From a virus: DNA of 20,460 nt. Made by a program: the position numbers and the translations under genes. The stretch covers positions 1-20,460 of IMG/VR virus record IMGVR_UViG_3300047564_000285. One strand, written 5' to 3'. The notes below the pieces were generated by a model, which was not told the origin of the DNA, ran no database searches, and saw only the letters and a list, made by a program, of their open reading frames with translations. Of this stretch, positions 5,574 through 10,991 are shown piece after piece (within the stretch, counting starts at the first letter, position 1; each line of letters opens with the position of its first letter).

Positions 5574-5741
5574 CTAATCCTTTAATAGGTTTTCTTTTAA
5601 AAATCTGACCACTGATACCTGACCAGCTCTGTAAGAAAGTTCCTTCTCACTTAGCTGATAGTCAGGAAACTGATCAGGAAACAATTCATCCAGCTTTTCT
5701 AACAGCCGATCAAACTCAGCCGTACTCAGGAAGATTGACAT
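5574..5741 (-). CDS. Small acidic conserved cyanophage protein (55 aa)
   Basis: The likely start is the ATG at 5741, giving MSIFLSTAEFDRLLEKLDEL, then a FPDQFPDYQLSEKELSYRAG segment and a C-terminal QVSVVRFLKENLL helix. It resembles a short, uncharacterised protein often found near the reductase genes of cyanopodoviruses. It overlaps the last 26 bases of the nrdB gene and ends 4 bases before the gp7.3-like gene. A longer frame upstream (to 5807) is just shadow of nrdB. No catalytic motif is visible; two predicted amphipathic helices suggest a small interaction protein. Confidence 0.7.
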   Translation of the reverse strand: MSIFLSTAEFDRLLEKLDELFPDQFPDYQLSEKELSYRAGQVSVVRFLKENLLKD

Positions 5742-6423
5742 TAGAGTGCTCAAAGAACGCGGGCATACGGGCACGACGGGTTGCCACCAGTCCTTCTGCC
5801 TTGCCACTATACAGCAGGCTATCAGACTGTTTCAACCAGAAGTCTCGATCAAGATAAGGATTCTCATTGGAACCTAGTGGTTGCATGATCCAAGCTACCG
5901 TTGCTTTACGAAGCTTGTCAAGGTTTTGAGTGACCGTAAGGCCAAGCTCTTTGCAGATAAGAGAGTTTGTTGCAACATGTACTTGTTCGTCTCTTGAGAT
6001 ATCTGCCGATACCGTGCGGCATCCAGCATCTCCATTCCACCGAAAGAAGGGCAGAAGGACGAAGAAGACGGATCGCTCCAGTACCATTGCTTTGAGGACC
6101 GGATGCTCTGATGCTTCAATCCAGGCTTTCTGGATTCGTGCAGCTTCTGGAATGTCTTCCAGCTTATGAGCACGAGCGATGTAATCAAGAGCGAGGTCGT
6201 GCTTTTCTTCATCTTGAATATTGCTTTGGAGAAGTTCCTTGGCTTCGATTGGATAGTCTTTCTTCATTGCATTATCAATGAAGTTACCAACAGGAATCTC
6301 CAGGTTACGCAGAGACAAGGCACGAAGAATAGCTTCTTCAGATCCAGGTGCAAAGGTACCGGCTTCAACCTGAACAGGAGTCCAAGAACGTTTACGAGAG
6401 AGAAGTTTCTGATAGGAGTTCAT
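5716..6423 (-). CDS. nrdB: Class I ribonucleotide reductase beta (small) subunit, cyanophage type (235 aa)
   Basis: A short, divergent ferritin-like protein with the two metal-binding ExxH motifs of class I reductase small subunits: E72-E-K-H75 and E146-Q-V-H149. Glu42 (31 residues before E72, matching the spacing in E. coli NrdB) and Glu116 in VLERSVFF are good candidates for the other ligands. The residue four after H75, where E. coli has radical Tyr122, is Leu79, so the normal tyrosyl radical cannot form there. Small subunits of this kind beside cyanophage reductases, once called hypothetical, have been reinterpreted in the literature as NrdB. The ATG at 6423 overlaps the large-subunit stop (ATGA), showing tight coupling of the two subunits. 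A TTG at 6432 in the same frame is rejected as start. Confidence 0.82.
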   Translation of the reverse strand: MNSYQKLLSRKRSWTPVQVEAGTFAPGSEEAILRALSLRNLEIPVGNFIDNAMKKDYPIEAKELLQSNIQDEEKHDLALDYIARAHKLEDIPEAARIQKAWIEASEHPVLKAMVLERSVFFVLLPFFRWNGDAGCRTVSADISRDEQVHVATNSLICKELGLTVTQNLDKLRKATVAWIMQPLGSNENPYLDRDFWLKQSDSLLYSGKAEGLVATRRARMPAFFEHSNVNLPEYG

Positions 6424-7805
6424 TCTGCACAATCACAAGTAGGAGAGTTATCTTCTTGTGACTCTTCAGCCCAGAACTTCTCAATGTCTTCAAGGTCTAA
6501 CGCAGCAAGAGCGTTGCTCTTATCCTGCGTATCTGGCATAACTTGAAGTGAATAGTAGAGAGAAGTCTGTGGACTGTTAAGCCACTCTTCGATGAAGGAT
6601 TGGTTGTAGTTCACAACGTCGCTCCAGCTATTCATGGAATATCCATGCAAGAGACCTGTTGAATTTAACAGGCGCATAATATTATCGGCAACCTTTCGGT
6701 AAGCATCCCAGCCAACTTCGCTGGCGATCTCCACGTCACCGTATTCAAAGTGTTCAACACCAAAGGTGCCACTGTCTCGATCCACCTCATTGGAAATGGG
6801 AGGAGCAATCTCAGGGCAGGTGGTGTAACCATCAAGATCCTGATAGCGATAGCTACAGGAGGCGGTAGGAGCAATGGCAAATGCTCGTACCATGTTGTTT
6901 ACTCGGGCAATCTGTGCTGCCGTTTCAACGCCACGACGCAGCTCATGGGCAAGGAGAGAGGCAGGAGTATGTTCGTGAGGCTCTTTGTTATTCATAGCCT
7001 CCAGAGCATTGCCAAACTCCTCATAGGTTACACCTGAGCGACGGAGCAGGTTAGCCAATCCGAGCATTCCCAGACCGACCTGGCGATCTTCCTGCGGAGC
7101 AAGGTACTCTCCGCTATCTCCGACGCCTGTCTTGGCATGGAGGGCGCACAGCTCTGACATTCCGTTTGCAAATGCACGTTGAATGTCATCGTACTCACAA
7201 GCGCCGAGGTTGACATGCTGCAGTAGACAGGTTCCCCGTGAGGGCAGGTACACTTCCAAACAAACGTTTCCATAAATACGCTTACCGTTACGGTCTACTT
7301 TAGTTTTGTTAAGCCAGATGTCACCTTTCTTAATACCCGTGAGCAACGCTTCTTTAACGTTCTCAGGCGCTGCCTCCCACCAATAGTGGTTAATATCGAC
7401 ACAGCGTTTAACCCAAGGTAGATCAGCCCGACTAGCAGTAATAAACTCCAGCACATCGGGATGATTAAGATCAAGATGAATAACGACAGCTCCATTCTTG
7501 TACACACCACCCCGACGCAGGGTTTCATTTAGGACTGAGTAAATTTTTGCAAACGAGATTGGGCCAGATGCAACCAAGCCCTTGCCGTTCTCATCTCCCT
7601 TGGGTCGGAGTTTGGAAAGGTGGACTGCCACTCCTGCTCCATTTCGGAGAGCGTGAGAAGCAAATCGCCAAGAAGCTTCAATTCCTTCTGGACCCTCCAT
7701 CGTGTCCTCCACCACAAAAACGGTGCAAGACACAGGGAGACGAGATGTTGGATCATCTATCCAAGATTGTACACGACCAGTGCGAGCGATCAGATCAGTA
7801 GACAT
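6420..7805 (-). CDS. nrdA: Ribonucleotide reductase alpha (large) subunit (461 aa)
   Basis: It reduces ribonucleotides to deoxyribonucleotides for phage replication. Visible catalytic features are Cys27 (PVSCT), the thiyl-radical motif N180-V-C182-L-E184, a second cysteine near 193 in TCLLQHVNLGAC, the PTASCS loop, and a C-terminal redox pair Cys457/Cys459 (TCDCAE). Tyr417-Tyr418 (SLYYSL) matches the paired tyrosines that carry the radical in class I enzymes and are not needed in B12-dependent class II enzymes. With the NrdB-like gene coupled downstream, class I is the best call, although similar cyanophage proteins were long labelled class II. It is short for the family and lacks an N-terminal ATP-cone. 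The ATG at 7805, 1 base after the MazG-like stop, is preferred to an in-frame TTG at 7820. Confidence 0.92.
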   Translation of the reverse strand: MSTDLIARTGRVQSWIDDPTSRLPVSCTVFVVEDTMEGPEGIEASWRFASHALRNGAGVAVHLSKLRPKGDENGKGLVASGPISFAKIYSVLNETLRRGGVYKNGAVVIHLDLNHPDVLEFITASRADLPWVKRCVDINHYWWEAAPENVKEALLTGIKKGDIWLNKTKVDRNGKRIYGNVCLEVYLPSRGTCLLQHVNLGACEYDDIQRAFANGMSELCALHAKTGVGDSGEYLAPQEDRQVGLGMLGLANLLRRSGVTYEEFGNALEAMNNKEPHEHTPASLLAHELRRGVETAAQIARVNNMVRAFAIAPTASCSYRYQDLDGYTTCPEIAPPISNEVDRDSGTFGVEHFEYGDVEIASEVGWDAYRKVADNIMRLLNSTGLLHGYSMNSWSDVVNYNQSFIEEWLNSPQTSLYYSLQVMPDTQDKSNALAALDLEDIEKFWAEESQEDNSPTCDCAE

Positions 7806-8568: not shown

Positions 8569-9253
8569 AGTCAGTAGCTTGCAGAATTTTAGCAAGCCTA
8601 GCATTGAGCAAAGCATCGTCGTCTGACAATCCTTTCTCTCGATAGGCTTGACACACAGCCTCCCATGGGAAGTCATGTTTATCAATGAGATCAGCAGCAC
8701 GCTTAACTCCAATACCAGGACAGCCAGGATAGCCATCCGTAGGATCACCTGCTAGTGATTGAATTAAATGCCAGCGGTCTCCATCTTCCTTGGTGATCTC
8801 TTCAACCTCATCACTGAGGTTCCACAGAGCACCAGGAATCTGACGCATATCTTTATCAGGACTTACAATGATAGGAAGATCATCGAAGTCTTGCTGATAC
8901 TTAGTAGCATCAATGCCCAGGGCATCGTCTGCCTCAAGGTTGTCCCGTACAACGGTGCTGAAGTTTTCAATGCACCAGTTTACCAGACGTTTATATCCCA
9001 GGGGCTTGCGTCTGTTTCGGTGACCCTTGTAATCAGGGTAAATTTTTTTCCTAAAATTTTCAGAACTAGAGAAGTACAGGACTATCTCATCGTCCATCAT
9101 AGCGGTCGTGATCTTGTTTATCTCTCGCTCAAAGATGCGAAGAACTTCACTGAAGCTGGATTGAGTAATAATTACATCATTCCCAAAGTCAATGCCTTCT
9201 TCACATGCCTGAGACGACTTGTAAGCAAGATAGTCGGTGTCAATTAACAGCAT
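8477..9253 (-). CDS. 5'-3' exonuclease, T7 gp6-like / FEN family (258 aa)
   Basis: Flap-endonuclease-family nuclease that degrades duplex DNA 5' to 3', removing RNA primers and breaking down host DNA. Metal-binding acidic residues are visible in LLIDTDYLAY (residues 2-11), in RDNLEADDALGI, and in VSPDKDMRQI; the helix-hairpin-helix region follows as LAGDPTDGYPGCPGIGVKRA. Length is slightly less than T7 gp6 (300 residues). The ATG at 9253 overlaps the DNA polymerase stop by one base (TAATG) and has GAGG about 9 bases upstream, so it is preferred to an in-frame start 18 bases earlier. It follows the polymerase just as gp6 follows gp5 (with small genes between) in T7. Confidence 0.93.
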   Translation of the reverse strand: MLLIDTDYLAYKSSQACEEGIDFGNDVIITQSSFSEVLRIFEREINKITTAMMDDEIVLYFSSSENFRKKIYPDYKGHRNRRKPLGYKRLVNWCIENFSTVVRDNLEADDALGIDATKYQQDFDDLPIIVSPDKDMRQIPGALWNLSDEVEEITKEDGDRWHLIQSLAGDPTDGYPGCPGIGVKRAADLIDKHDFPWEAVCQAYREKGLSDDDALLNARLAKILQATDYDFTTGQPILWSPASCPGTDDRTAVQDEED

Positions 9254-10515
9254 TAGTGTACCTCGGCCCAATTCACTCCGATCTTAGCCTCGGCTGCGAT
9301 TGGAACCCGTAGTTTGTAGTATTCACCAGCCTCAGTGGCTGATTGAACGCAGATGTCAGCAACCTGCTGAGCAACGTCTGGTGGACAGCCTAGCGCCTGT
9401 TCATCATGGACAAAAGCATAACGCTCATGCTCAATACCTTTGAGATGATCATCAGTAATGAGCAGCCAACGCTTTGCAATAACGCCAGCAGATGACTGCA
9501 AGAGGAAGTTCAAAGACTTGTGCGGAGAGTCAACATAAATGTGACGTTTATCTACCGCAACGATGTAACCCTTTGCAGCTGCAGCTTTGGTTGCTTCAAC
9601 AAGCTTATCAAGGCCAGGAATGGCATCCATGTAAGCCTGGCGAATCTCAGCACCCTTGGCTTTCGCCTTGTTCGGGGAAAGCATTGGATCGTATGAGAGG
9701 CCGATCTTTTGATCACCCGCTCCATAAAGAAACGCATAGGTTACAGTCTTAACAAGTTTACGGCTGATGCCGATCTTATCGGCGTTCTCTTGGTGAATGT
9801 CACCATTGAGAAGAACATCAGCGTATCTGCCCTCATCATACCTAGCAAGGTAATGGGCAAACACTCTGAGTTCAATGCCTGAAAGGTCGCTATCAACTAG
9901 CTTCCACCCAGGACGAGTAATAAATAGTTCTCGGCAATCAGCATCGCTGCTTACTTGCGCGAGATTGGGACGTGCATGGGCCATGCGATGCGTGGCTGCC
10001 CCAATAAAGCAGGAGTGGTGAAGCCTGCCATTCTTGACCAACTTCAACCATGCATTGTTGCCTTGTGACAGCATTCCGAGCTTCTTCTGTGTCTCAAGAA
10101 TCTCTAGGAATAACAATGCCTCTTCTGTTCCGATCTCTTTGAGAACGGTTTCATCAATAACAGCTTTACCTGTTTCAGTCATCTTGGTTGGCTTCCAACC
10201 TTGGAAGGTTTTGAAGAACCAAGCAATGTGCTCTCGGCTACTGGGATTGAACTCCTTAAGCCTTTGCATCTCTGCTCCAGCTACATAGCCCTGGGTCTTG
10301 TTATCCCGCTTGGGAGTGAACAGGTTACCAGGAACACACCAGCAAAGCTTCTCTGCGGCCTCTCTGAGGCTCTCCAAGCGGCTTAGAAGGGTGTTCTCTA
10401 GCTCTTGGGCTGCCCTCACATCAAAGGGCCATCCTACGGCCTCCTGGAGGGCCATTAGTTCCCCGATACGGTGCTCTAGGAGGACCGCTTCAGGTATTTC
10501 TGAAAATGGTGCCAT
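9253..10515 (-). CDS. DNA polymerase, family A polymerase domain (420 aa; separate frame from exonuclease)
   Basis: Thumb, fingers and palm of a T7 gp5-like polymerase. Motif A is SDLSGIELR with the metal ligand Asp210; motif B (O-helix) is RKLVKTVTYAFLYGAG at 252-267 with Arg252, Lys256 and Tyr260; motif C is FVHDEQ with His370-Asp371-Glu372. The position equivalent to E. coli Pol I 762 (T7 526) is Tyr260. The exonuclease domain that normally precedes it in the same protein is encoded in a different frame at 10476-10991, overlapping by 40 bases. The ATG at 10515 lacks a Shine-Dalgarno sequence, and the true homologous region seems to begin at about PEAVLLEHRIGE (residue 8), so this could be one gene broken by a frameshift. 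Together the parts total ~590 residues, as expected for one cyanophage polymerase. Confidence 0.93.
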   Translation of the reverse strand: MAPFSEIPEAVLLEHRIGELMALQEAVGWPFDVRAAQELENTLLSRLESLREAAEKLCWCVPGNLFTPKRDNKTQGYVAGAEMQRLKEFNPSSREHIAWFFKTFQGWKPTKMTETGKAVIDETVLKEIGTEEALLFLEILETQKKLGMLSQGNNAWLKLVKNGRLHHSCFIGAATHRMAHARPNLAQVSSDADCRELFITRPGWKLVDSDLSGIELRVFAHYLARYDEGRYADVLLNGDIHQENADKIGISRKLVKTVTYAFLYGAGDQKIGLSYDPMLSPNKAKAKGAEIRQAYMDAIPGLDKLVEATKAAAAKGYIVAVDKRHIYVDSPHKSLNFLLQSSAGVIAKRWLLITDDHLKGIEHERYAFVHDEQALGCPPDVAQQVADICVQSATEAGEYYKLRVPIAAEAKIGVNWAEVH

Positions 10516-10991
10516 AGTTTAACTAAAACAGCAACGTCTTGTACACAATAATCCTGCATCTCCTGAGACCACTCAGACCAATCAGCAGTTTTACCAAACT
10601 CACCCTTGTAACACTTAAGGCGGTAACCATAAGCTTCCAGGCTATGTGATCCATACAAACGAGCAGGCATCATAGGCCACTTACGTTTGAGATCAATGTC
10701 CAGGATGTTGGGGTGGAAGAACCTGCTGAGGATTAGTGTATCTATTTGATGATGGTGGTCGAAGAACGGGTAGTGCTTCTTGATCTGGGGCGTGTCATAC
10801 CCAATACCGTTGTGAGCAACAATGAGATCTGCTTCCGCAAGATAATTGATGCCAGTACTGATAGGATAACAATCACCTCCTCGATCATTGTACTGATGTA
10901 CTTCACCAGTATCCAGATCTTGTGTAACCAAACAATGAACAACCGTGGAATCAAAGCCATCAGTCTCAATGTCATAAGCAAGCCTACTCAT
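10476..10991 (-). CDS. 3'-5' proofreading exonuclease domain of the phage DNA polymerase (171 aa)
   Basis: DnaQ-type exonuclease equal to the N-terminal part of T7 gp5. Exo I is YDIETDG (Asp7, Glu9), Exo II is IVAHNGIGYD (about 57-66), and Exo III is DYCVQDVAVL near residue 146. All catalytic acids are present, so proofreading should work if the product folds or joins the polymerase. The frame stops with QKYLKRSS just where the polymerase frame (one base back) begins. AGAGAGG upstream of the ATG at 10991 is a good Shine-Dalgarno sequence. Whether this is a natural two-subunit polymerase, a programmed frameshift or a sequence error cannot be decided from the window alone. Confidence 0.9.
   Translation of the reverse strand: MSRLAYDIETDGFDSTVVHCLVTQDLDTGEVHQYNDRGGDCYPISTGINYLAEADLIVAHNGIGYDTPQIKKHYPFFDHHHQIDTLILSRFFHPNILDIDLKRKWPMMPARLYGSHSLEAYGYRLKCYKGEFGKTADWSEWSQEMQDYCVQDVAVLVKLWHHFQKYLKRSS

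Follow-up and report, generated by a model that had tools for sequence, protein, structure and literature searches.

Many marine cyanopodoviruses carry a ribonucleotide reductase (RNR) whose classification has been revised. The "Cyano SP" clade, once counted in class II, was reassigned to class I with "If" proposed as its subclass, and its beta subunit was found to lack Tyr122 (Harrison 2019, PMC6370689). It was later given a class of its own, class Ø, separate from classes I and II; a position close to the root of both has been argued for it. In that later account the radical site of class Ø beta is occupied by Phe or Leu, neither of them redox-active, as is also the case in class Ic; the shortened beta tail ends in a C-terminal Tyr and lacks the extension by which other betas bind alpha; and the class Ø alpha is closer by sequence to class II, with a tyrosine pair that in structure 7URG fills the space of the class II adenosyl group (Burnim 2022, PMC9531940). 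Protein work is non-trivial, as class Ø proteins can be unstable without metals (Burnim 2022, PMC9531940); the class was still termed biochemically uncharacterised in a 2026 preprint (PMC12918982), and our literature search found no paper with biochemical characterisation of any class Ø beta.

Here we analyse a class Ø locus in the window, a linear IMG/VR virus record of 20,460 bases. A prior sequence-only reading had singled out its beta subunit for carrying leucine at the radical tyrosine position. The missing tyrosine is a fixed and already published trait of the family, making the window copy an ordinary one and the observation a correct rediscovery. There is little novelty in the window gene itself; new here are a cyanobacterial cluster of cobalamin riboswitch, metE and class Ø genes, an intron site in beta at the E146 codon, and the phage nature of 11 GTDB contigs, the cyanobacterial cluster being the most worth following.

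The window and its reductase gene pair

The window has the gene order of a cyanopodovirus, with RNA polymerase, primase-helicase, split DNA polymerase, exonuclease, a MazG-like protein, RNR alpha, RNR beta, portal, scaffold and psbA on the minus strand, and the genome that hosts the locus is that of a T7-like cyanopodovirus. DNA polymerase A occupies two overlapping ORFs at 9253-10991 (minus strand), as annotated in P-SSP7, representing either a split gene or a programmed frameshift. Scanning the whole window for Rfam families found none.

The alpha gene (6420..7805, minus strand) encodes 461 residues, a length that leaves no room for an N-terminal ATP cone, and includes C27, C182, C193, the pair Y417/Y418 and a C-terminal CDC. 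It matches 7URG, the cryo-EM structure of the class Ø alpha of Synechococcus phage S-CBP4, across residues 5-446 (E 7.2e-239). The tyrosine pair is kept in 156/156 alphas, upholding the earlier expectation that radical transfer runs through paired tyrosines of the large subunit; the C-terminal tail is CxC in 85 alphas and CxxC in 71.

Directly downstream, the alpha stop and beta start overlapping as ATGA, lies the gene for a ferritin-like beta subunit of 235 residues (5716..6423, minus strand; ATG at 6423, stop at 5718-5716). It matched the RNR beta family phrog_6799 in PHROGs (E 1.9e-113) and nothing in Pfam. Betas of this type occur in 56 phage records, 55 of them at 53-64% identity and that of Microcystis phage Mic1 at 37%. 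The window RNR is thus named here as class Ø ("Cyano SP", proposed "If"). The previous assignment to a class I beta subunit holds for the beta part, given the ExxH motifs, the phrog_6799 match and the R2 fold described below; the class I label is debated, class Ø being the placement of Burnim 2022.

Older annotations call such alphas nrdJ or class II, and class Ø alphas are indeed nearer class II in sequence (Burnim 2022, PMC9531940), from which it might be argued that alpha is a B12-dependent enzyme and beta an unrelated ferritin-like protein. We regard this as highly improbable: the alpha tyrosine pair sits in the adenosyl-group space in 7URG, the beta gene follows alpha immediately in nearly all members (Mic1 is the non-adjacent case), beta keeps all six metal ligands, and the cyanobacterial genomes discussed below point the same way.

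Several features of neighbouring and related records are set down here. A small ORF (5574-5741, minus strand) begins within the final codons of beta, and a hypothetical gene is similarly placed after beta in P-SSP7, Syn5 and SS120-1. In Mic1 the class Ø alpha and beta (MN013189.1:61630-62367 and 74733-76049) lie about 12 kb apart, as against the adjacency reported for the class. The S-CBP4 and P-RSP2 records hold the beta gene in two frames, an apparent frameshift, and the P-RSP2 beta carries no annotation.

Putative metal ligands, radical site and proposed relay of the beta subunit

We aligned 163 distinct betas; they came from named phages and two cyanobacterial genomes as well as from viral and GTDB contigs, and the set was gathered from four seeds and unevenly sampled. 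Thirty-eight positions are strictly invariant, among them W14, E42, D71, E72, H75, D76, W101, E116, F120, L124, D145, E146, H149, W178 and Y234. The putative ligands all belong to this group (coordinates here and below are on the minus strand): E42, ligand 1 (6298..6300), which stands opposite E89 of Chlamydia trachomatis R2 in a weak match (E 0.6); E72 and H75 of the first ExxH motif, E72-E-K-H75 (6199..6210); E116, the E204-like ligand 4 (6076..6078), which hhalign with R2 places opposite E204; and E146 and H149 of the second motif, D145-E146-Q-V-H149 (5977..5991), where hhalign pairs D145, an Asp237-like relay residue, with D237, E146 with E238 and H149 with H241.

Two features of this ligand set depart from described subclasses. 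The spacing between E116 and E146 is 30 in all 182 aligned proteins, against 34-35 for the corresponding glutamates of the reference subclasses (Harrison 2019 Table 3, PMC6370689), and the residue before the first ExxH is Asp71 in 163/163, against Glu in class Ic (E119 in C. trachomatis) and Cys/Ser in class Id (Harrison 2019 Table 4, PMC6370689). Asp71 and the spacing of 30 set class Ø apart from Ic. Ligand 1 is Glu, in contrast to the Asp of Ia/Ib, as it is in Ic, Id and Cyano SP (Harrison 2019, PMC6370689).

An AlphaFold2 model of beta, built from a 42-sequence alignment, reached a pLDDT of 88.7, with low confidence in the final 14 residues. In Foldseek and VIA-align comparisons its top structures were R2 proteins, classes Ia, Ib, Ic, Id and Ie scoring Z 18-20: class Id 6sf4 at 20.2 (213 aligned, rmsd 2.8), class Ic 4d8f at 19.6 (215 aligned, rmsd 2.9) and E. 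coli R2 at about 19, values so close (about 1 apart) that the predicted fold cannot choose a subclass. At the sequence level, phmmer with the single beta found chance matches only in the PDB; hmmsearch with the family profile placed class Ic C. trachomatis R2 among its best matches, weakly (E about 0.6), aligning E42/E89, H75/H123 and L79/F127; and hhalign of the beta profile with ten R2 sequences fixed the second half and not the first. For the first half, alignment to R2 therefore depends on the ExxH register together with the fold and the weak hmmsearch match; because the beta-R2 sequence statistics are weak, ExxH register and fold are likewise the basis for equating Leu79 with Tyr122.

In that register, position 79, four residues after the first ligand His, is Leu in the window (6187..6189), and the 163 homologues have Leu (138) or Phe (25) and never Tyr, which bears out the claim of leucine at the Tyr122 position. 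Leu79 is no sequencing error, since relatives at 87-93% identity share it and the family has only Leu or Phe. On a tree of 159 of the 163 betas, built with the position-79 column left out, Fitch parsimony requires two changes between Leu and Phe; every Phe79 tip falls within one 26-tip clade (support 0.87), which also holds Syn5 with Leu. Replacement of the radical-site Tyr by Phe, Leu or Val is the mark of class Ic; the storage Tyr of Ia/Ib and the Tyr122-equivalent that Id conserves but does not use are both absent, and class Ie, with its lost carboxylate ligands and DOPA-forming Tyr, does not fit a protein with six intact ligands and no Tyr at the site. F120 and L124 stand opposite E. coli F208 and F212 in the second-half hhalign register. 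Those E. coli residues line the Tyr122 pocket, which seems to have been kept though the Tyr itself is gone.

Could a radical be stored on another side chain? Tyr81 (6181..6183), proposed earlier as an alternative radical residue, is Tyr in 157 of the 163 homologues, as a storage site would suggest; the other six have Phe (L082, and L124 with its duplicate L123), Leu (L181) or Met (both cyanobacterial proteins and virus contig L218, that is, all three members of the chromosomal/L218 lineage). A Tyr81 radical is unlikely because of these replacements, and the geometry is also unfavourable: in the model a single helix spans residues 59-85, and Tyr81, at i+6 from His75, would be expected to point in the opposite direction if Leu79, at i+4, faces the metals. 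We give this proposal very little credence. A stable radical on an invariant Trp near the metals would be compatible with the conservation of W14, W101 and W178, each in 163/163; in R2 proteins, however, Trp radicals are short-lived relay states, and we know of no precedent for Trp as the stored radical in an RNR, so that we hold this improbable. Conservation in this way narrows the class Ø mechanism, leaving no possible storage Tyr beyond the C-terminal relay Tyr: Tyr234 (5722..5724), penultimate and Tyr356-like, is the sole strictly invariant Tyr (163/163), followed by a single residue in 173/182 aligned proteins, the window included. At the other end of the putative relay, the Trp48-like W14 (6382..6384) lies in a WTP that hhalign sets opposite E. 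coli W48-R-P, a pairing that is not significant.

Since a storage Tyr is lacking, the six ligands are intact, ligand 1 is Glu and a full relay set leads to the alpha tyrosine pair, a metal-centred oxidant is the simplest reading, in line with the earlier suggestion of a metal-centred route as in tyrosine-free subclasses. We consider a class Ø RNR with a metal-centred oxidant, free of B12 and relaying to the alpha tyrosine pair, the best explanation, and a probable one. Beta would bind two metals through E42, E72, H75, E116, E146 and H149; with a redox-inert Leu in the Tyr122 pocket, the oxidising equivalent would stay on the O2-activated cluster, as in Ic (Mn/Fe) or Id (Mn/Mn). In turnover the hole would pass from H75/D145/W14 to the penultimate Y234, on to alpha Y418/Y417 and then to the catalytic C182, which would start ribonucleotide reduction and so provide phage DNA precursors, B12 not being used. 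Weighing against this account are the weak beta-R2 sequence statistics, the beta tail that stops one residue past Y234, the E116-E146 spacing of 30, and the distance of about 650 nt between the cyanobacterial riboswitch and metE.

A sub-case of the metal-centred explanation is that beta, while of R2 type, differs from Ic and Id in its metal centre or in the way it is activated, and forms a separate subclass, Harrison's If. The invariant D71, where Ic has Glu and Id has Cys/Ser, and the E116-E146 spacing of 30 would suit it, as would the absence of NrdI (PF07972) from the nine related phage records in which we looked. NrdI was likewise absent from one Prochlorococcus genome, which would make dedicated Ib-type activation unlikely; the window itself is a fragment. 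The ligand set, however, is the same as in Ic and Id, and class Id is reportedly activated by superoxide with no need of NrdI, leaving the separate subclass a tentative possibility.

An intron in beta and the origin of GTDB copies

In 14 viral contigs beta is split by a group I intron (RF00028, 60-87 bits) of about 235 nt with no long ORF; the same intron is present in a GTDB contig (L090:4145-4381), which is apparently the same contig as L229, one of the 14. In 13/14, those holding both exons, the insertion falls precisely at the boundary of codons D145 and E146, within the second metal motif. Group I introns are known in other phage RNR genes (PMC3653736), where we found no description of the D145/E146 site. 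Two unrelated MAG contigs, L091 and L092, begin at base 1 with beta residue 142, beside the intron site; presence or absence of the intron in a population may break assemblies near this residue. Four cyanophage contigs (L233, L236, L237 and L240) have glutamine-II riboswitch matches at a distance of about 3.3-4.5 kb from their intron-split beta.

A direct genome scan of GTDB yielded 11 contigs (L082-L092), whose bins are labelled Flavobacteriales, Dehalococcoidia, Euryarchaeota and others. In 11/11, homologues of cyanopodovirus portal, scaffold, exonuclease, alpha or psbA flank beta; because T7-like cyanophage genes surround it, these are phage contigs, mis-binned in the MAGs and, in the Prochlorococcus genome, perhaps present through infection. 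Their origin urges caution against seeing class Ø as widespread in marine bacteria. The "marine bacteria" half of the class Ø clade comes partly from Tara MAGs (Burnim 2022), and those members deserve the same check of flanking genes.

Class Ø in cyanobacteria and comparison with known reductases

Chromosomal members do exist. Scanning 386 cyanobacterial genomes for beta gave three matches. One is the Prochlorococcus single-cell genome, in which beta is surrounded by phage genes; the others are two genomes related to each other, each about 4.5 Mb in size, in which a class Ø alpha (50% identical) and beta (45%) stand behind metE on the same strand (L202:7608-13849; L203 has the same layout). 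In one of the two, G035, the cluster lies on a 472-kb contig. A cobalamin riboswitch aptamer precedes metE in both genomes (60.9 and 61.5 bits) by about 650 nt, within a leader largely conserved between them, and in L202 a promoter-like site lies immediately 5' of the riboswitch. The two genomes belong to one small family and count as one evolutionary observation. A search for the cyanobacterial beta among plasmids gave no match. A related alpha-beta pair occurs on a 150-kb virus contig (L218:2585-4717), closest to the chromosomal version (51%) and having Met as residue 81. The cyanobacterial class Ø genes are flanked by two ORFs that look alike, each of about 150 residues and with no Pfam match (L202:7608-8096 and 10389-10823, minus strand).

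Both genomes also encode a B12-dependent NrdJ (in G035 on the same contig) and MetH, whose frame in G035 has one internal TAG and may be broken or misread. PF02867 had made class Ø appear to be the sole RNR of both; it gave no match in sibling genomes or in an S. elongatus control either, which shows that this model misses the cyanobacterial enzyme, and TIGR02505 finds NrdJ in all six genomes. The coexistence of the riboswitch-metE-class Ø cluster with NrdJ and MetH disfavours the class II reading of alpha. Though indirect, it is good evidence for class Ø standing in for NrdJ under B12 shortage, with the riboswitch probably controlling the RNR genes. Because the cluster occurs beside NrdJ, B12-independent function of class Ø can be approached genetically. 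The text of Burnim 2022 (PMC9531940) mentions neither riboswitches nor methionine, and our literature search found no report linking class Ø to a cobalamin riboswitch or metE. A fuller proposal is likewise tentative: the class Ø oxidant would reside on a metal centre of neither the Ic nor the Id kind, no amino-acid radical would be stored, and in some cyanobacteria the enzyme would serve as a riboswitch-controlled replacement for NrdJ.

A precedent for such control comes from Streptomyces, where the class Ia nrdABS genes are under a B12 riboswitch (Borovok 2006, as cited in PMC5962746). As far as that citation goes, an RNR under a cobalamin riboswitch is the shared feature, proposed for the cyanobacterial genes; the reductase there is class Ia, whereas here it is class Ø behind metE.

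Among reductase small subunits, class Ic R2 (C. trachomatis NrdB) shares with the window beta a non-Tyr radical site, Glu at ligand 1, the six ligands and the fold (Z about 19). It differs in length (346 residues against 235), in having Glu rather than Asp before the first ExxH, and in a spacing of 34 rather than 30; class Ø beta, moreover, lacks the alpha-binding tail, and its alpha is minimal. Class Id R2 (Leeuwenhoekiella, F. johnsoniae) shares Glu at ligand 1, a minimal alpha and the top Z (6sf4 at 20.2, level with others), and storage of the oxidant on the metal, a feature of Id, would be a further likeness if our proposal holds; Id retains the Tyr where class Ø has Leu/Phe, and has Cys/Ser where class Ø has Asp before the first ExxH. 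The closest systems are the class Ø reductases of P-SSP7, S-CBP4 and Syn5, which the window resembles in its alpha (to 7URG), its beta (53-64%), the Phe/Leu site, the C-terminal Tyr, the CxC tail of alpha and the alpha-beta overlap. We see no difference of substance from these, and the window is a further, metagenomic member of their class.
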